From assembly GCA_945957395.1 (NCBI GenBank), contig CAMFKE010000006.1, positions 62,001 to 126,000 on the forward strand: a stretch of 64,000 bases of DNA, written 5' to 3'. This DNA comes from an uncultured Opitutia bacterium. GTDB lineage: Bacteria; Verrucomicrobiota; Verrucomicrobiia; Opitutales; UBA953. The translations under genes were made by a program, and so were the position numbers. Below, piece by piece: positions 10,772-35,870 of this stretch. The number at the start of each line of letters is the position of its first letter. The stretch's first letter is position 1. Under the pieces are notes generated by a model. That model did not search any database, was not told the DNA's origin, and worked only from the letters and a program-made list of their open reading frames with translations.

Positions 10772-11632
10772 TCAACGCTTCGGCTCCACGGGGCGCCAGA
10801 ACCGCTCGTCCTTCTCATTCTCATCAAAGATAAAAATATGCGGCAGCGACGAAAGGTCGTCGTCAACAGGAGGCGAAGCGGGAGTGACCTCAATAATGGA
10901 CACCTTTTTTCCTGCAATGGCGCGTCGAATGGAGGGATGAGCCTTGAGCAAATCCTCGGAAACCGTCCCGACTTTGAGTCGCGGCGCCTTCCATTCATTA
11001 TCGTCCACTCGGTGCCGAAGCTCCTCCAACGCCTCGGGCGACGGAGGCACGACCTCGTAGGCGTCCGTCTCGGGCAAACCACGCATCACGGCGAGTCTCG
11101 TTTGAAAACAGAAGTTGGGGGCCGACTGCCAAATCATGCAGTCCCAAAGCGATTCGGAGACGGTGGGATTGCCATAAAACGCCCCCTCTTCGTAGGCCAG
11201 AAGACGGACCTTCCGACCGACATACCCCTTGTTCAGTTCGCGAATCTGCCTGTCGTTCAGTTCGCCCGTTTTCTTACCCGTCTTCATTTCATACAGCGAG
11301 AAGTGGTCCGGCTCTATGTCGACGTCCGAGCCAAACACATAAAAGTGAAGCATTGGCGCCGGGTTGAGCGGATTCCCATCCACCTTTGTCACCTTAAGCA
11401 GATAACTGCCCCAATTCATCTTCGAGCCGAGTTCGTCGCCATCCACGATGGTCGCCTCGATGGTCACCAAGGTGCCAAGTCGGACGCCCAATTCGCCGAT
11501 CACGGCCACGCCGGAGTTGAGCTCCGAAACGCTGACGGCACGCGGTTCGCCTGCGGAAGGTGAACGGCCGGCGCAACCGGCGAGCGCCGCCATGGCGAAG
11601 AAGAGAATCGAGCGAAGCAGGTAGGATTTCAT
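10772..11632 (-). CDS. Putative lipoprotein of unknown function, 286 aa
   Basis: The ATG at 11632 gives MKSYLLRSILFFAMAALAGCAG, a lipoprotein signal peptide with lipobox LAGC; upstream in-frame codons would only bury it. The mature protein begins with a Ser/Ala stretch, then a beta-rich domain (VAVIGELGVRLGTLVTIEATIVDGDEL) with an OB-like look, and ends in a charged tail with a predicted flexible PPVDDD segment. No family was recognised. Its base composition is visibly lower in GC than its neighbours, and it lies between two copies of the serS 3' end, which suggests recent acquisition. It is probably exported and anchored in a membrane facing the periplasm. Confidence 0.75.
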   Translation of the reverse strand: MKSYLLRSILFFAMAALAGCAGRSPSAGEPRAVSVSELNSGVAVIGELGVRLGTLVTIEATIVDGDELGSKMNWGSYLLKVTKVDGNPLNPAPMLHFYVFGSDVDIEPDHFSLYEMKTGKKTGELNDRQIRELNKGYVGRKVRLLAYEEGAFYGNPTVSESLWDCMIWQSAPNFCFQTRLAVMRGLPETDAYEVVPPSPEALEELRHRVDDNEWKAPRLKVGTVSEDLLKAHPSIRRAIAGKKVSIIEVTPASPPVDDDLSSLPHIFIFDENEKDERFWRPVEPKR

Positions 11633-11730
11633 GGGGTAATGCGTGCCGGAGCGAAACCTTGCGCAGCCTTCGGGCAAGCATGCGAAACTCGCCTTTTGCA
11701 CACGCAAGCGCACGCCCTAGAGAACAAGCA

Positions 11731-11908
11731 GGCGGGCGAGGACGCCCGCGCTCCGGCCGCATCAATTCGCGCCCTTCGCGGGCAAATCCGACGGAGCTCA
11801 CGCCTCCGGCGAAAAGCAAAAGGCCCGACCCCGATAAAACCGGGACGGGCCTTTTTCGCGTATCCGCGAAGCGCTTACTTGAGCACGGGGCCGATGGTGT
11901 CCTTGCCG
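11731..11908. repeat. Direct repeat copy 2: REP-like hairpin, terminator and serS tail
   Basis: This is the partner of 10565-10741. Here the block is continuous with the intact serS gene, so its last 34 bases are the functional stop codon and final codons. Just upstream, at 11704-11720, lies GCAAGCGCACGCCCTAG, a short element found again inside mfd at 47741-47757. Confidence 0.9.
11818..11855 (-). terminator. serS terminator
   Basis: The stem is AAAAGGCCCG (11818-11827) with CGGGCCTTTT (11846-11855), with an inner CCCG/CGGG pairing. It lies directly downstream of the serS stop. The A run on the plus strand gives the terminal U run in the minus-strand transcript. Confidence 0.75.
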
Positions 11909-13155
11909 TACCAGCGGCGGAGCGCCTCGGGGATGACCACGGAGCCGTCGGGCTGCAGGTTGTTTTCCAGGATGGCGGCGAGCACGCGGGGGAGGCCGAG
12001 GCCGGAGCCGTTGAGGGTGTGCAGGGTCTCGGGCTTGCCGGTGGCCTTGGAGCGGTAGCGGATGCCGGCGCGGCGGGACTGGAAGTCGGTGAAGTTGGAG
12101 CAGGAGGAGACTTCGAGCCAGCGCTTCTGGCCGCCCGCCCACACTTCCAGGTCGTACTGCTTGGAGTGCGCGAAGCCGATGTCGCCGGTGCAGATGGAGA
12201 GCGTGCGGTAGGGCAGGCCAAGCTTCTGCAGGATGAGCTCGGCGTCCTCGCGCAGCGTCTCGAGCTCGGCGAACGAGGTCTCGGGCGCCACCCACTTCAC
12301 GAGCTCGACCTTGTCGAACTGGTGCAGGCGGTTGAGTCCGCGCACATGCGCGCCCCACGAGCCGGCCTCGCGGCGGAAGCACGGGGTGTAGCCGCAGAAC
12401 TTCACCGGGAGCTGCTCCTCGGGGATGATCTCGTCGCGGTAGAAATTGGTCACGGGCACCTCGGCGGTCGGGATGAGGTACAGGTTGTCCACGCCGGCGT
12501 GGTACATCTGACCTTCCTTGTCGGGCAGCTGGCCGGTGGCCGTGGCCGACGCGGGGTTCACCAGCAGGGGCGCCCACACTTCGCGGTAGCCGCGCTCGCC
12601 GGCGTGCTCGAGGAAGAACTGGATCAGGGCGCGCACGAGGCGGGCCATGTCGCCGACATAGAAGGGGAAGCCGGCGCCGGTCACCTTCACGCCGCGCTGG
12701 AAGTCGATGGCTTCCGAAAACCACGGGATGTCCCAGTGCGGCTTGGCGGCGGCGGAAACGGCGTCGATGTCGCCCCAGGTGGAGTGCACGACATTGTCGG
12801 TCTCCAGCTTGCCCACGGGCACGGAGGCGTGCGGGATGTTGGGCAGCGTGAGGTACACGGCCTTCCACTGCTCCTCGATCTCGGCGGCGGACTTCTCGAG
12901 CTCCTTCACCTTCGCGCCGGCGGCCTTCATCTCGGCCACCTTGGCCTGGAACTCCGGCGTGCCCTTGGGCATGTCGGCCATCGCCTTGTTCGCGGCATTC
13001 TGAGCGGCCTTGGCGGTCTCGGCCTCGGCGATGAGCGCGCGGCGCTTCTCGTCGAGCGCGTAGAACTCGTCGAGCGGCACATCCTTGAACTTCTTCTTGG
13101 CGATGCCGGCGCGCACCAGGTCGGGGTTTTCGCGGAGGAGCTTGAGGTCGAGCAT
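11875..13155 (-). CDS. serS: Seryl-tRNA synthetase
   Basis: A 426-residue cytoplasmic enzyme that charges tRNA-Ser with serine, and also tRNA-Sec where that tRNA is present. The start at 13155 gives MLDLKLLRENPDLVRAGIAKK, the standard SerRS N-terminus; a longer open frame upstream is non-coding. Residues 1-110 form the tRNA-binding helical coiled-coil arm. The class II motifs follow: LIPTAEVPVTNFYRDEII (motif 2 region), CFRREAGSWGAHVRGLNRLHQFDKVELVKW, and motif 3 near the end (NGSGLGLPRVLAAILENN). Length is as expected. It is monocistronic here. Its last codons and terminator are duplicated 1.17 kb downstream. A serine tRNA (CGA) is also present, at 33021. Confidence 0.97.
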   Translation of the reverse strand: MLDLKLLRENPDLVRAGIAKKKFKDVPLDEFYALDEKRRALIAEAETAKAAQNAANKAMADMPKGTPEFQAKVAEMKAAGAKVKELEKSAAEIEEQWKAVYLTLPNIPHASVPVGKLETDNVVHSTWGDIDAVSAAAKPHWDIPWFSEAIDFQRGVKVTGAGFPFYVGDMARLVRALIQFFLEHAGERGYREVWAPLLVNPASATATGQLPDKEGQMYHAGVDNLYLIPTAEVPVTNFYRDEIIPEEQLPVKFCGYTPCFRREAGSWGAHVRGLNRLHQFDKVELVKWVAPETSFAELETLREDAELILQKLGLPYRTLSICTGDIGFAHSKQYDLEVWAGGQKRWLEVSSCSNFTDFQSRRAGIRYRSKATGKPETLHTLNGSGLGLPRVLAAILENNLQPDGSVVIPEALRRWYGKDTIGPVLK

Positions 13156-13240
13156 GGGAGAGTCTGGTAAAAGCCGGGTAGGTATCCGGCCGCCCGCCCC
13201 GCTGGCAAGATTGGAAGCGCCCCGCCCCCGGGCAGGGCAT

Positions 13241-13275
13241 GGAAACGCGGAACGCGGATCTCGGAATGCGGAACC
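13241..13275. repeat. Heptamer-period degenerate repeat
   Basis: Short units of seven bases built on GGAACGC/GGATCTC/GGAATGC follow one another between the serS start and the next gene. On the minus strand they read TTCCGCA TTCCGAG ATCCGCG TTCCGCG, the same family as 15262-15292 and 46700-46720. Confidence 0.7.
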
Positions 13276-13390
13276 GGTGGCGACCGCCCCGATACGCGCC
13301 GCGCAACCCGCAACGGAACGGCCGCAAGGAGACGCAAAACGCGCAAAGGCTCCGGCGACAGACGGGGTGGGATCGGCACATCGCCGGGTG

Positions 13391-15061
13391 ATGCGAGCAG
13401 CCCTTGCGGCTCCCGGAGGCCAATCGGCCAAAGGCTTGCGAACGCTGCACGGAGCGCCATTCCGCTCAATCGCCTCTGCCGCTCATGATGTCCCCCAAAT
13501 TCCTTCTCCCCCCCTGATTCTCACCACCGCCGCAGCCGGCGCCGCCGATAGCGATGCGCCGAATCCGGGCGAGACGACCGCCGCCAAGCCCGCTCGCGCG
13601 AGCGACAACTTCATGAAGGGCGTATCGCTGCGCACACTCAAGCCGCGAACCCAATTCTACGACGAATTCGTCGCCGGGCCCGAGTTCACCGCGCCGCTGC
13701 CATTCAACGGCAAGCCAAGGTTCGCCTTCACCGAATACAAAGACGATCAGGGCACATCGCGATTCCAATACCTCGCCGCCGGCCTGCCCGCGAACAACCC
13801 GCGCCAAGGCGACGCGCCTAAGAACCCCGGCACCGACCGCGGCCCGCTCCTGCGCGTCAACTACGGCGAGCCCATCGTCTTCGGCAAACGCTCCGACGCC
13901 CCGCCGATTCGCATCACCCCCGTCGCCCTCCTCGGGTTTGGCCCGGATCCTTATTCTTACGGCAAGCCTCTCTGGGCAATCGATGCGTCAGGAAATCCGA
14001 TTCCGCAAGACGCCGCCGAAAAGCTCGTACGAGGACTGCCGAACGGCCTCTCCGGATGCTCATTCAGCAAGTTGAACGCTGCAAAACTCGTGATTGTCCT
14101 CGATAGCGACGGAGCGCCGCTGAGCTCAGGAGTCTGCGCCATCCGGCGGGATGACACTGGGGACACGTCGCAACAAGGCATCGAAATCAAAACCCCGGGC
14201 CCTCATAGCGCGCCGCACCGGCGCCTGGCGATTGTCATTCAGCACCCCTTCCACGACGCGCCGCCGGTTTCCGTCGCACTCCAACTTTTCGCCGGCACGC
14301 CCGAATCACTGAAGACACCCGCATACAAAACCGTCGGGGGCGGCAGGTTCACCGTCATGCGCGTGGGCGAAATAGCCCGCAGCACCTGGGCCTGCGGCGG
14401 CATGGGAGCGTACCACTTAGGCGAAAATTCCGACTGGTTGGAAAACTTGAAATCCCAAGCGAAACCGGCGATCCAGCCCCTTCTAAAAACCCCTCCCGAA
14501 GGCCTCCTCGTCTTGGGCGCAACCTGCGATTCAAAGCCTGGGAAAACGGTCTTCTACGCCATCAACGAGGACGCCCCTTCCACGCGATTCGTTCACGACT
14601 CAGACAACCCGGGCAACGACGACAGTCTGGGTGATTTCGGCTCCGGCGCCTCGCATATCCTCGCGTGCGCTGCGGGCGATGCGACCAAGGATCCCGCACC
14701 GCGCCGGCTCCCATACGCCGCGCGAGTGCTTATGAAGTTGCCCGAACTGCCCGGCGAGTGGCCCAATCGCGGCGTCGCCGAACCGCTCGATTGGAAGCTG
14801 AAGATCCCCAAGGGTTATGACGGCAAGCCCTTCGAGCTGCGTAGTTTCGACCTGCGCATTGTATCCGCATTCGCTCCCTACCAATCCGGCACCTCGGTGC
14901 TTATGAACCGCCCGATCACGCCCGGCCCCGACGGCACGCTCACCCTGCGCGAACTGCTCCTCCAGGCGTACGCCCCGGAGATTCGCGAAGGCCACGAGTT
15001 CGAATTCGACCCCGCCGCGCGCCGCATCTCGGCATGCAAGCCGCCCCGCCCCGCCAAGTAA
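13391..15061 (+). CDS. Secreted protein of unknown function, probable frameshift at a C7 tract
   Basis: The uninterrupted frame used here begins at ATG 13391 (556 aa), but its first 41 residues are poor in protein-like features. A better start is ATG 13485 in another frame: [10 protein letters not shown], then a stop after a run of seven C at 13508-13514. One extra C would join it to [13 protein letters not shown] in the main frame, giving a normal signal peptide and a protein of about 525 residues. So either there is a homopolymer error, the gene is phase-variable, or it is decaying. The body ([72 protein letters not shown]) was not recognised. A terminator follows at 15083. Confidence 0.65.
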
Positions 15062-15082
15062 GTCGCGAGACTCGCTCAGACC

Positions 15083-15118
15083 AAGGTCGCCCCTCACCCG
15101 GGCGGCCTTTTGTTTTTT
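15083..15118 (+). terminator. Terminator after the unknown secreted protein gene
   Basis: Stem AAGGTCGCCC (15083-15092) with GGGCGGCCTT (15100-15109), one G-T pair, is followed by TTGTTTTTT. Confidence 0.8.
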
Positions 15119-15381
15119 GGCGGAACGAACCGTCGAGGGGGGGGGCACGGCGGCGCGGCGCCGGCGCCCCCCGGCAGGAAAACCCACTGCCGTCCATCCC
15201 CGGCGCCGGCCTGCGCGCGGCGAGGGCGCCGCGCCCACGACTTGAATCTCCGCCACCGCCTGTTCCGCATTCCGCGTTCCGAGTTCCTCATTTGGCCCGG
15301 CCCGCCTGTCGCCTTTTTGCACTTCCCCGCCCCGGCGAAAAATGCAGGGTCGCGCGCTTTAAACCGAATCTCCGAACGACC
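15119..15381. other. Intergenic leader of pgi with G9 tract and heptamer repeat
   Basis: No gene is seen. The stretch holds a run of nine G at 15137-15145, a GC-rich segment, and a heptamer-period repeat at 15262-15292 (TTCCGCA TTCCGCG TTCCGAG TTCCTCA). The pgi start follows an AC-rich leader without a Shine-Dalgarno motif. Confidence 0.6.
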
Positions 15382-16977
15382 ATGGCCACCACCACCTCCT
15401 CCTGGGACCGCTTCTGCCGATACAACATCGGATTCCCCGAAGTCGGCTTCGCCATCGACATCAGCCGCGTGCCCTTCGGCGACGACTTCCTGGGCCGCAT
15501 GGAGCCTGAGATGAAAAAGGCCTACGCCGCCATGGCCGAGCTGGAGAAGGGCGCCATCGCCAACCCGGACGAGAAGCGCATGGTCGGCCACTACTGGCTG
15601 CGCTCCCCCGAGCTCGCCCCCACGCCCGCCCTGCGCGCGGCCATCGAGGGCGCCGTCTCCGCCATCGAGTCCTTCACCGCCAAGGTGCACGCCGGCGAGG
15701 TCAAGGGCGCCGCGGGCAAGTTCGAATACCTCCTGTGCATCGGCATCGGCGGCTCCGCCCTCGGCCCCCAGTTCGTCGCCGACGCCCTCGGCCAACCGGG
15801 CAAGGACAAGCTGAAGGTCCTCTTCATCGACAACACCGACCCGGACGGCTTCGACCGCGCCTTCGCCGAGCTCGAAGGCAAGCTGGGCAAGACCCTCGCG
15901 GTCGTGACCTCCAAGTCCGGCAGCACGCCCGAGCCGCGCAACGGCATGATCGAAGCGCAGGCGCGCTACGCCAAGGCCGGGCTGGACTTCGCCAAGCACG
16001 CCGTGGCCGTGACCGGCGAAGGCAGCGACCTGGACAAGGCCGCGGTGAAGGCCGGCTTCCTCGCCCGTTTCCCCATGTGGGACTGGGTCGGCGGCCGCAC
16101 CTCCGAACTGTGCGCCGTGGGCCTGCTGCCCGCCGCCCTCCAGGGCCTCGACATCCGCGGCATGCTCGCCGGCGCGCGCAAGATGGACGCGCTCACCCGC
16201 TCCACCGACACCCTGCGCAACCCCGCCGCGCTGCTCGCGCTGATGTGGTGGTTCGAGACCGGGGGCAAGGGCGCCAAGGACATGGTGATCCTCCCCTACA
16301 AGGACCGCCTCCTGCTCCTCTCCCGCTACCTGCAGCAGCTCATCATGGAATCCCTCGGCAAGGAGAAGGACCTCGCCGGCAAGACCGTCAACCAAGGCAT
16401 CTCCGTCTACGGCAACAAGGGTTCCACCGACCAGCACGCCTATGTGCAGCAGCTGCGCGAGGGCGTGAACAACTTCTTCGCCACCTTCATCGAGGTGCTG
16501 CGCGACCGCGACGGCGCCGGCCTGGAAGTCGAGCCCGGCGTGACCTCCGGCGACTACCTGGAAGGCTTCCTGCTGGGCACCCGCGAGGCGCTCACCGAGA
16601 ACGGACGCGCCAGCATCACGCTCACCATCGAATCCGTGTCCGCGCAGTCCGTGGGCGTGCTCATCGCCCTCTTCGAGCGCGCCGTGGGCCTGTACGCCAC
16701 GCTCGCCGGCATCAACGCCTACCACCAGCCCGGCGTCGAGGCGGGCAAGAAGGCCGCCGCCTCGGCGCTCAAGCTGCAGGGCGCCGCCCTGGGAGTGCTG
16801 AGCGCCGCCCCCGGCAAACCCTTCACCGCTTGTGAAATCGCCGCCAAATTGGAACTTGAAGGCCAAGCGGAGCTTATCTTTAAGCTGCTCTCGCATCTGG
16901 CGGCCAACCCGGGCCGCCGCGTGGTCGCCAACCCCGCCGCCGGCATCGCCGGCACGACCTTTACCGTTACCCCCTAA
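15382..16977 (+). CDS. pgi: Glucose-6-phosphate isomerase
   Basis: A 531-residue cytoplasmic enzyme that interconverts glucose 6-phosphate and fructose 6-phosphate in glycolysis and gluconeogenesis. The phosphate-binding [17 protein letters not shown] motif, [19 protein letters not shown], and the late active-site segment [23 protein letters not shown] are all present. The ATG at 15382 gives [15 protein letters not shown]; the open frame extends upstream but that part is repeat and terminator sequence. The C-terminal 60 residues ([34 protein letters not shown]) form an extra small helical domain, as in the longer Pgi forms. The next gene starts 17 bases after the stop, so the two may be cotranscribed. 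Confidence 0.96.
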
Positions 16978-33206: not shown

Positions 33207-35870
33207 ATGATTCGATTCCCATTCCGTGTCACGCTCCTGGCCGCCGCCTCGCTGGGCGTCGCCGCTCAGGCCGCCGACTTGGCGACCCCGCCGCCGGCAA
33301 CAGCCGATACCCCCGCGAAGCCCGCGCGCGCCCATATCGTGGGCAAGGTCACGGACGCCGCCGGCAAGCCCGTGGAGGGCGCCGTGGTGTTCGTGGACAC
33401 CGCCTGGCCGAAGGTGGGCCTGGGCGTGCTGTGCCCGTCCTGTTATGCCGATTGCGCAAAGCAGACGACCTCCGGGCCGGGCGGAGACTTCCGCCTCGAC
33501 GACCTCGACCCTGCTCTGGGCTTCAACCTGCTCATCGCCGCGAAGGGCTTCGCGCCTACGACCGTCACCGTGCGCAACCCCGGCGCAAAAACGGTGGTCG
33601 CCACGCTCGCCGCGCGTGCCGGAGGCGAGACGGCCGATAAGCGCGCCACCGGGCGCATCCTGGACCCGCAGGGGCACCCGGTTCACGGCGCGACCGTGGA
33701 GCGCATTTCGATTTGGAGAAACAACAGCAGCACCTCCTCGGACCGCTCGGTGGAGTCGGTGGCGGTGAGCGATGCCGACGGGCGCTTCGCCCTCTTTGGC
33801 ACTCAATCCTTCGACAACCTCCGGGTGCGCATCCGGGCTCGCGGGTGCGCCCCGCGCACCGAGACGCTACCGCCCGGCGACACGCCGCAGGAAATCCGAT
33901 TGCAGGAGGGCACGACGGTCACCGGTCGCCTCGTGCGCGACGGCCTTCCCGTGGCCGGCGCCCAGGTCGGGCTGATTCAAAAGGACCGTTGGGTCAAAAC
34001 CTTCGTGGGAGAGCAGAGAGCGGCGACGGACAAGGACGGACGCTTCACCTTCTACAGCATGCCGCCCAATCAGGAGTGGCGCCTGTACGGCATCTCGGAC
34101 TCGCTCAAAGGCCTTGGCGCCGTCGCGCCTCGCGGGATTTGCACCCCGGCGAACGAGGGCACGCTGGCGGTCGGTGACATCGCGCTCATCCCCGGGCATG
34201 TGGTGGCCGGACGAGTGCGTCTCACGGATGGCAAGCCGGTGCCGCCGCACACGCGCCTCATGCTAACTCGCGACGACGCGTGGGATCAGGTGATCGTGGA
34301 ATTGGACGCCGAGGGGCGCTTCCGCCTGGAGCATGCCCCGGCAGGCGTGGTGAAACTGAGTGTCGGGCTTGAGGATTACCGTCCGAGCGCAGCCAACGCC
34401 TCGTTGGAAGACAGCATTTCCATTCGCGGCGACCTGACGGCGGACAAGACCGACCTCGTGCTGGAATACGAGCCCGGCAAATTCGGTTCGAACTGGAAAC
34501 CCGTCTCGGAGCGTCCGTTGGCCGGCGCGGAAGCCGCGTTCGACCGGCCGCCTCCGCTGCCGGGCAAGGGCGCGATGCAGGCCGCGCGCGACGCCGCCGC
34601 ATTGCGCGAGCGCCAACGCCAAGAGCATTTGAAGAAGCGAGCGGCGACGCCGAGCCGGTTCAGTGGGGTGGCCACGCAGGACGCCGAGGGAAAGATGCCT
34701 ATCTCCGGCGCCAAAGTGACGGTCGTGGCGGCGTATTCAAAAAAGCCTGACGAAGGGCTCGATCAGCTCTCCGATTCGCCCTGGGTGGGGCAGGTTCGCG
34801 TGACCGACGCGAGCGGCGCCTTCGATTTCGGCGAACTCGATCCCGAGCTGTCGTTGGTCGCCGAAGTTTCGGCGCCAGGACGAATCACCACTACGACTCA
34901 GTCCGGCTTCGGCCGCGTCGTGCTGAAGGCGCGCACGCCGTCGAACACGCCCCCGCTGCGCGGGGTGATCGTGGACGCCGCCGGCGCCCCCGTGTCCAAC
35001 GCCCGCGTGATGCTGCGCACGACCGACCGTAGCAGCGTCACCGAGTATGCGCGCGAATCTGAGGCGTCGCGTGCGGAGAGCGACGACGCCGGCCGATTCA
35101 CGCTGGAGGACATCGGCTCGTGCGACCGCGCCAGCATTGAAGTGCGAGCGCCCGGATTCGCCCCCATGGTCGCCGCGCGTCTGGCACCCGGGGCAACCGA
35201 GAACACGGTGAAACTCGGGCGCGGCGGGCGCATCGCCGGCCGCCTGGTGAAGGAGGGCAAGCCTCTTGCGGGTATCACCGTAGTCTCGGAGGAGGTCAGC
35301 AAGTCCTCCGCCACACACCTGGATTCGGTCTGCGCCGTCACGGACGCCGACGGCCGCTTCGTCTTCGAACACCTGCCGGTGGACCGCGAGTTGGCTGTTT
35401 ATGCCGCAGCCAACTCCGTGGCGGCACACGGCGTGCATCAGGCCATCCGGCTGAATCCGTTGGGCGAGGGCGACTCTCGCGACTTGGGCGAGCTGGCCGT
35501 GACACGCGGCGTGACGCTCGCCGGCCGCGTCTACCTCAAGGATGGCAAGGTTGATGAGAATTTGAGCGTGTCGATCGGGCCGCTGGACTTGTGGGCGGCG
35601 CAGAAGGTGCCGTGCGACCCGGCCGGCCGGTTCAGCGCGCAGGTGCCCCCCGGGCCGGTTCGAGTTCAGGTGAACACCTATTATCATCACCTGACCCTGC
35701 GTAACCGCGGGCGTGGCACGAATTACCCCAACGCGGTGGAGGGCCGGCTGGACGCCGACAAGACCGACCTGCTCATCGAGCTCGCTCCCGGTCGGGAGCC
35801 CTCGCCGGACGAGTTGACCCTCGGGCCGTTGCGCGGCGCCGAGCGCGCCTCGGACGCGTCGCGCGAGTGA
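33207..35870 (+). CDS. Secreted protein with repeated carboxypeptidase-regulatory-like domains
   Basis: An 887-residue protein with signal peptide [22 protein letters not shown]. The mature part is a string of beta-sandwich modules of the carboxypeptidase regulatory-like type. They are recognised by repeats such as [93 protein letters not shown] and [18 protein letters not shown], each followed by a DADGRF-type turn. A Lys/Arg/Glu-rich segment near residues 445-475 separates two groups of modules. It is probably extracellular or periplasmic; no enzyme domain is seen. Codon use is somewhat less biased than in the housekeeping genes nearby. Confidence 0.8.

Follow-up and report, generated by a model that had tools for sequence, protein, structure and literature searches.

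Reading frames at the start of an orphan gene

The window, by which we mean the whole 64,000-nucleotide stretch of DNA from an uncultured Opitutae bacterium that was analysed, carries an orphan gene with a run of seven C residues near its start. Upstream of this gene lies a minus-strand gene (11875-13155) that, judging by its protein, we take to be serS, and its downstream neighbour is a phosphoglucose isomerase gene (15382-16977; Pfam PGI, E 5.8e-54). From the ATG at 13485 on the plus strand, the frame-0 codons read ATG ATG TCC CCC AAA TTC CTT CTC CCC CCC TGA. The C run, at 13508-13514, is exactly seven bases long, and the TGA (13515-13517) stands directly 3' of it. The long frame is open from 13085 to the TAA at 15059-15061 and is entered from base 13514; one extra C or a -1 slip joins frame 0 to it. 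As at a phase-variable locus, a repeat tract sits near the gene start and its length sets the frame. An earlier note on this DNA had described the ATG at 13485, the short frame, the C7 tract and the TGA exactly as they stand in the sequence, and its claim that one more C leads into the long frame is confirmed, as that frame reads on from 13514. The features of the locus are the following.

13485-13517, plus strand: likely true gene start in frame 0, ten codons and then TGA (codon log-odds +4.85 bits over the 10 codons)
13508-13514, plus strand: C7 tract, read in frame 0 as C_CCC_CCC and followed by TGA; best switch point between the frames
13514-15061, plus strand: main part of the orphan gene, read in the other frame (515 codons, then TAA); at its C-terminal end weakly similar to two paralogues of the same genome
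13391-13513, plus strand: alternative in-frame N-terminus from ATG 13391, requiring no frame break; disfavoured (codon log-odds -33 bits, less hydrophobic)
13613-13615, plus strand: first in-frame ATG past the C7 tract; disfavoured as a start (the 33 codons preceding it score +13 bits as coding)
15083-15109, plus strand: terminator-like stem with a T-rich tail, about 20 bases 3' of the stop codon; a weak sign (4 such sites in 13100-15450 versus 3.0±1.9 in shuffles)

Codon statistics argue for a gene that begins in frame 0 and continues in the long frame. With a final codon model trained on ten genes of the window, the ten frame-0 codons at 13485-13514 scored as coding, whereas the long frame scored -12.5 bits over the same stretch. 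Among 564 stop-free windows of ten codons, taken from both strands of the intergenic region 13160-13484, 1 attained the frame-0 score; the figure is rough because these windows overlap. The ten training genes, which as part of the model are no independent reference, scored from -5.1 to 12.5 over their own first ten codons. Downstream of the tract, the 33 codons at its 3' side scored +13 bits, and across the gene body, which is open for 515 codons, the other two forward frames fell below -570 bits. The long open body, set against the other frames, suggests recent activity of the gene.

The position of the break was examined with a switch-point scan, in which the score for joining the two frames peaked (+4.8) with the switch inside C7. 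An earlier C5 tract (13492-13496) was ruled out as the break point, the join score being down to -7.1 there. A two-base skip in C7 scored 4.7, so the scan does not fix the size of the step. The frame-0 segment is short, at ten codons, and the join was not selected when a frame-aware gene model was applied to the window; that model placed the gene start at 14732, because the codon use of this gene is atypical. The frame join at C7 is better than chance, and the frame break there looks real. These results support the earlier proposal that the gene starts at 13485 and that its frame is broken at C7, and we infer that the gene functions in its joined form.

By itself, the C7 tract is at chance level. 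The window contains 5 runs of C or G of at least seven bases, compared with 4.54±2.04 expected from 50 second-order Markov simulations, and exact C7 runs number 135 in the 2.79-Mb genome (67 on one strand and 68 on the other), so the tract is neither longer nor commoner than chance predicts. C7 followed by TGA occurs once in the genome; by our arithmetic, base composition alone would yield one or two such cases from 135 runs.

Relatives and predicted export of the gene product

We searched for relatives of the orphan protein at several levels. A protein search of 57 genomes (its own and 56 relatives) gave matches in its own genome only (1/57), as did a profile search of 372 genomes sampled from the order, its own included (1/372). 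A peptide-pattern scan of a genome contig collection returned 17 pattern matches and no relative, and a DNA pattern from the 3' side of the tract found nothing in a viral contig collection; entries from this genome or a very close one may be missing from the results of both scans. As these searches found no orthologue outside its own genome, the normal length of the tract cannot be read from relatives. In a test of synteny, the surroundings of relatives of the upstream gene (80 loci, with flanks of up to 4 kb and many of them shorter) contained no match to the orphan gene or to the six other window genes tested. The best 80 of 319 matches of the serS-like protein were headed by metagenome-assembled Opitutae and other Verrucomicrobia, at no more than 79% identity, which places the bacterium in that group as an uncultured member.

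Within its own genome, the orphan protein matches two paralogues weakly at its C terminus (E 7.6e-6 and 1.9e-4; 32% and 31% identity). Similarity between the two paralogues extends along most of their length (34% identity, E 1.6e-66), and so far the two appear to form a family private to this genome. They lie on contig C5 of this genome (G000), at 10846-12342 and 84824-86275, and have no match in the other genomes among the 372 of the order. No Pfam or NCBIfam family was found for the orphan protein, the Pfam matches of the paralogues are no better than weak (E 0.076 and 0.16), and a search for a solved structural relative of the orphan protein returned none. A single-sequence AlphaFold model of the orphan protein was too poor to use (mean pLDDT 36.6).

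The N-termini bear on where the gene begins and where its product goes. An 11-residue stretch in the joined N-terminus reached a hydrophobicity of 1.79, compared with 1.10 for the N-terminus from ATG 13391. All five reference N-termini compared are more hydrophobic (2.06 to 2.82) than the joined one, and two prolines fall in the hydrophobic part of the joined signal. Both paralogues start with hydrophobic segments (2.06 and 2.5), given the start codons that we chose for them. Judged from these N-termini alone, the product of the orphan gene is probably exported. No promoter-like site was found in 13100-15450.

Two further observations concern the surroundings of the gene. Similar stretches, GGAACGCGGA and its complement, were seen by eye in opposite orientation at 13241-13275 and 15262-15290, in the flanking intergenic regions, and are perhaps a dispersed intergenic repeat. 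Elsewhere in the window, 33207-35870 encodes an 887-residue protein with repeated carboxypeptidase-regulatory-like domains (Pfam CarboxypepD_reg, 6 stretches); its codon score of 175 bits is low for its length.

Explanations for the break at the C7 tract

On balance, we favour the explanation that the break is an ordinary, non-programmed one-base difference at the start of the orphan gene, either a consensus error or a slippage allele. The gene would encode a lineage-specific, probably exported protein starting at ATG 13485 (or 13488), whose eighth to tenth codons would cross a C homopolymer that in the record is one base off a frame-keeping length. On this view, either the consensus contains a one-off error or the sequenced cells carry a slippage allele, which would leave the gene off or decaying. 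We infer that it is not a programmed switch. The present data do not discriminate between a single consensus error and a single slippage allele. The matter bears mainly on annotation, as the record probably misplaces or lacks the start of the protein.

A homopolymer error was one of the two options offered in the earlier note. If such errors were a general problem of the assembly, similar breaks would be expected elsewhere, and none was seen in the 191,353 bases covered by our frame-break scan (the window plus 20 stretches): the called frame shifts lying within 16 bases of a run of at least six numbered 0 of 20 at cost 14 and 0 of 6 at cost 20. Several of the called shifts sit, by eye, at ordinary overlapping gene ends. 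In control runs on 18 window genes, seven of them training genes, removal of one base in mid-gene was detected in 18 of 18 cases. For a base removed at codon 10, detection fell to 11 of 18 genes at cost 14 and 9 of 18 at cost 20, so that breaks near gene starts, such as that at C7, are often missed. We also examined 40 exact C7 runs, of which 4 lie in the window; the other 36 are all those listed for contigs 2 and 4. Coding signal was present on both sides of 11 of them, and the frame was kept in all 11. Among the others, 9 had coding signal only after the run, 3 only before it, and 17, including the tract at 13508-13514, gave weak or unclear signal. Thus, a general assembly problem was not found, while a one-off consensus error stays a candidate.

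The case resembles the orphan singletons of the GeneTack survey of frame transitions (PMC3711429) in that a frame transition interrupts an otherwise open gene with no homologues in other genomes. It differs from them in having weak paralogues in its own genome and in the lack of any other homopolymer-linked break in the part of the assembly tested. According to the survey, 33% of orphan singletons should be gene overlaps, and sequencing errors together with indel mutations should account for the other 67%.

An alternative without any frame break is that ribosomes initiate in the long frame, using ATG 13391, TTG 13436 or some other codon as the start, and that the ATG at 13485 arose by chance within a C-rich leader. 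We regard this as doubtful. It would accord with a long frame that is open back to 13085, and with the frequent occurrence of poly-C just before called starts in the stretches we examined, which had been picked for long runs. It would also accord with the absence, by eye, of a Shine-Dalgarno sequence before ATG 13485, although none was seen before ten reference genes either (20 bases each, by eye). Against it, the codons from the upstream starts to the tract score -33 bits (ATG 13391) and -24 bits (TTG 13436), whereas the ten frame-0 codons score as coding. Moreover, the product from ATG 13391 would have no marked hydrophobic segment at its start, unlike the paralogues.

Phase variation, the other option of the earlier note, would have slipped-strand mispairing alter the length of the C tract and thereby switch an exported protein on and off. 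Such an arrangement would be consistent with the position of C7 at codons 8-10 of a probably exported protein, and with the presence in this genome of C tracts of 9 to 13 bases, including a C13 tract four codons into a MATE gene. In addition, for the cultured Verrucomicrobium Akkermansia muciniphila, PMC3048395 reports long homopolymers at gene ends and proposes possible phase variation. Like homopolymer contingency loci, that is, phase-variable surface genes and the Akkermansia candidates of that paper, the present locus has a C tract close to the beginning of a gene whose product is probably exported. Unlike them, it has a tract of 7 bases only, of a length that is common and at chance frequency in its own genome, with no variation seen and no related locus for comparison. 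No length variant came to light, and no orthologue emerged from the 57 genomes, the 372 genomes sampled from the order or the contig pattern scan. We found nothing in support of phase variation at this tract, and we consider it unlikely. If sequencing reads showed mixed tract lengths, this uncultured Opitutae bacterium would be a further case of exported proteins being switched through homopolymer slippage, a mode of switching that, according to PMC3711429, has been studied mainly in pathogens.

The least likely explanation, and one not listed in the earlier note beside phase variation and error, is programmed -1 ribosomal frameshifting on C_CCC_CCC before the TGA, by which a fraction of ribosomes would enter the long frame. 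The sequence CT[C_CCC_CCC]_TGA contains an X_XXZ_ZZN heptamer in register, and the required shift is -1. PMC4066793 names C_CCC_CCC as one of the motifs at which -1 frameshifting in E. coli is most efficient. The locus is like the heptamers described there in having the motif in register with a stop codon directly 3' of it, and unlike them in that no stimulatory structure was found and no upstream stimulator was seen: the 86 bases 3' of the tract fold ordinarily (z 0.34, with 122 of 200 shuffles as good, in a test of pseudoknot-free folds), and inspection by eye revealed no Shine-Dalgarno-like stimulator on the 5' side. Register and direction would fit by chance perhaps once in six by rough arithmetic. 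We hold frameshifting to be highly improbable.

Other poly-C tracts in the genome

Runs of up to C13 are present in this genome. Among the 20 stretches, which were picked for long runs, 20 of 25 runs of at least eight bases fell outside model-called genes and 5 of 25 inside them. The C13 tract (C2:79755-79767) lies in a MATE transporter gene (L018:3244-4635, equivalent to C2:79743-81134; Pfam MatE, E 1.2e-39), where it begins four codons after the ATG with the frame open. Of its 34 matches in other genomes, 31 start at residue 10 or beyond, past the tract, and by eye the stretch from the tract to residue 18 contains no in-frame start codon. The C13 tract would be a better candidate for phase variation than the C7 tract of the orphan gene. 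We rate as very unlikely the possibility of a group of poly-C contingency loci, including those of the exported orphan protein and the C13 MATE transporter, through which the bacterium would vary its cell surface and transport by slipped-strand phase variation.

Nine of the poly-C runs outside called genes, 8 to 11 bases long and on the coding strand, lie 14 to 76 bases before called gene starts; given how the stretches were picked, these pre-start counts are a lead and not a rate. They are found at loci L014, L016, L017, L022 (two runs), L025, L026, L027 and L030, and the run at L026 ends its contig. In the window, a G9 run occupies 15137-15145, between the orphan gene and the phosphoglucose isomerase gene.
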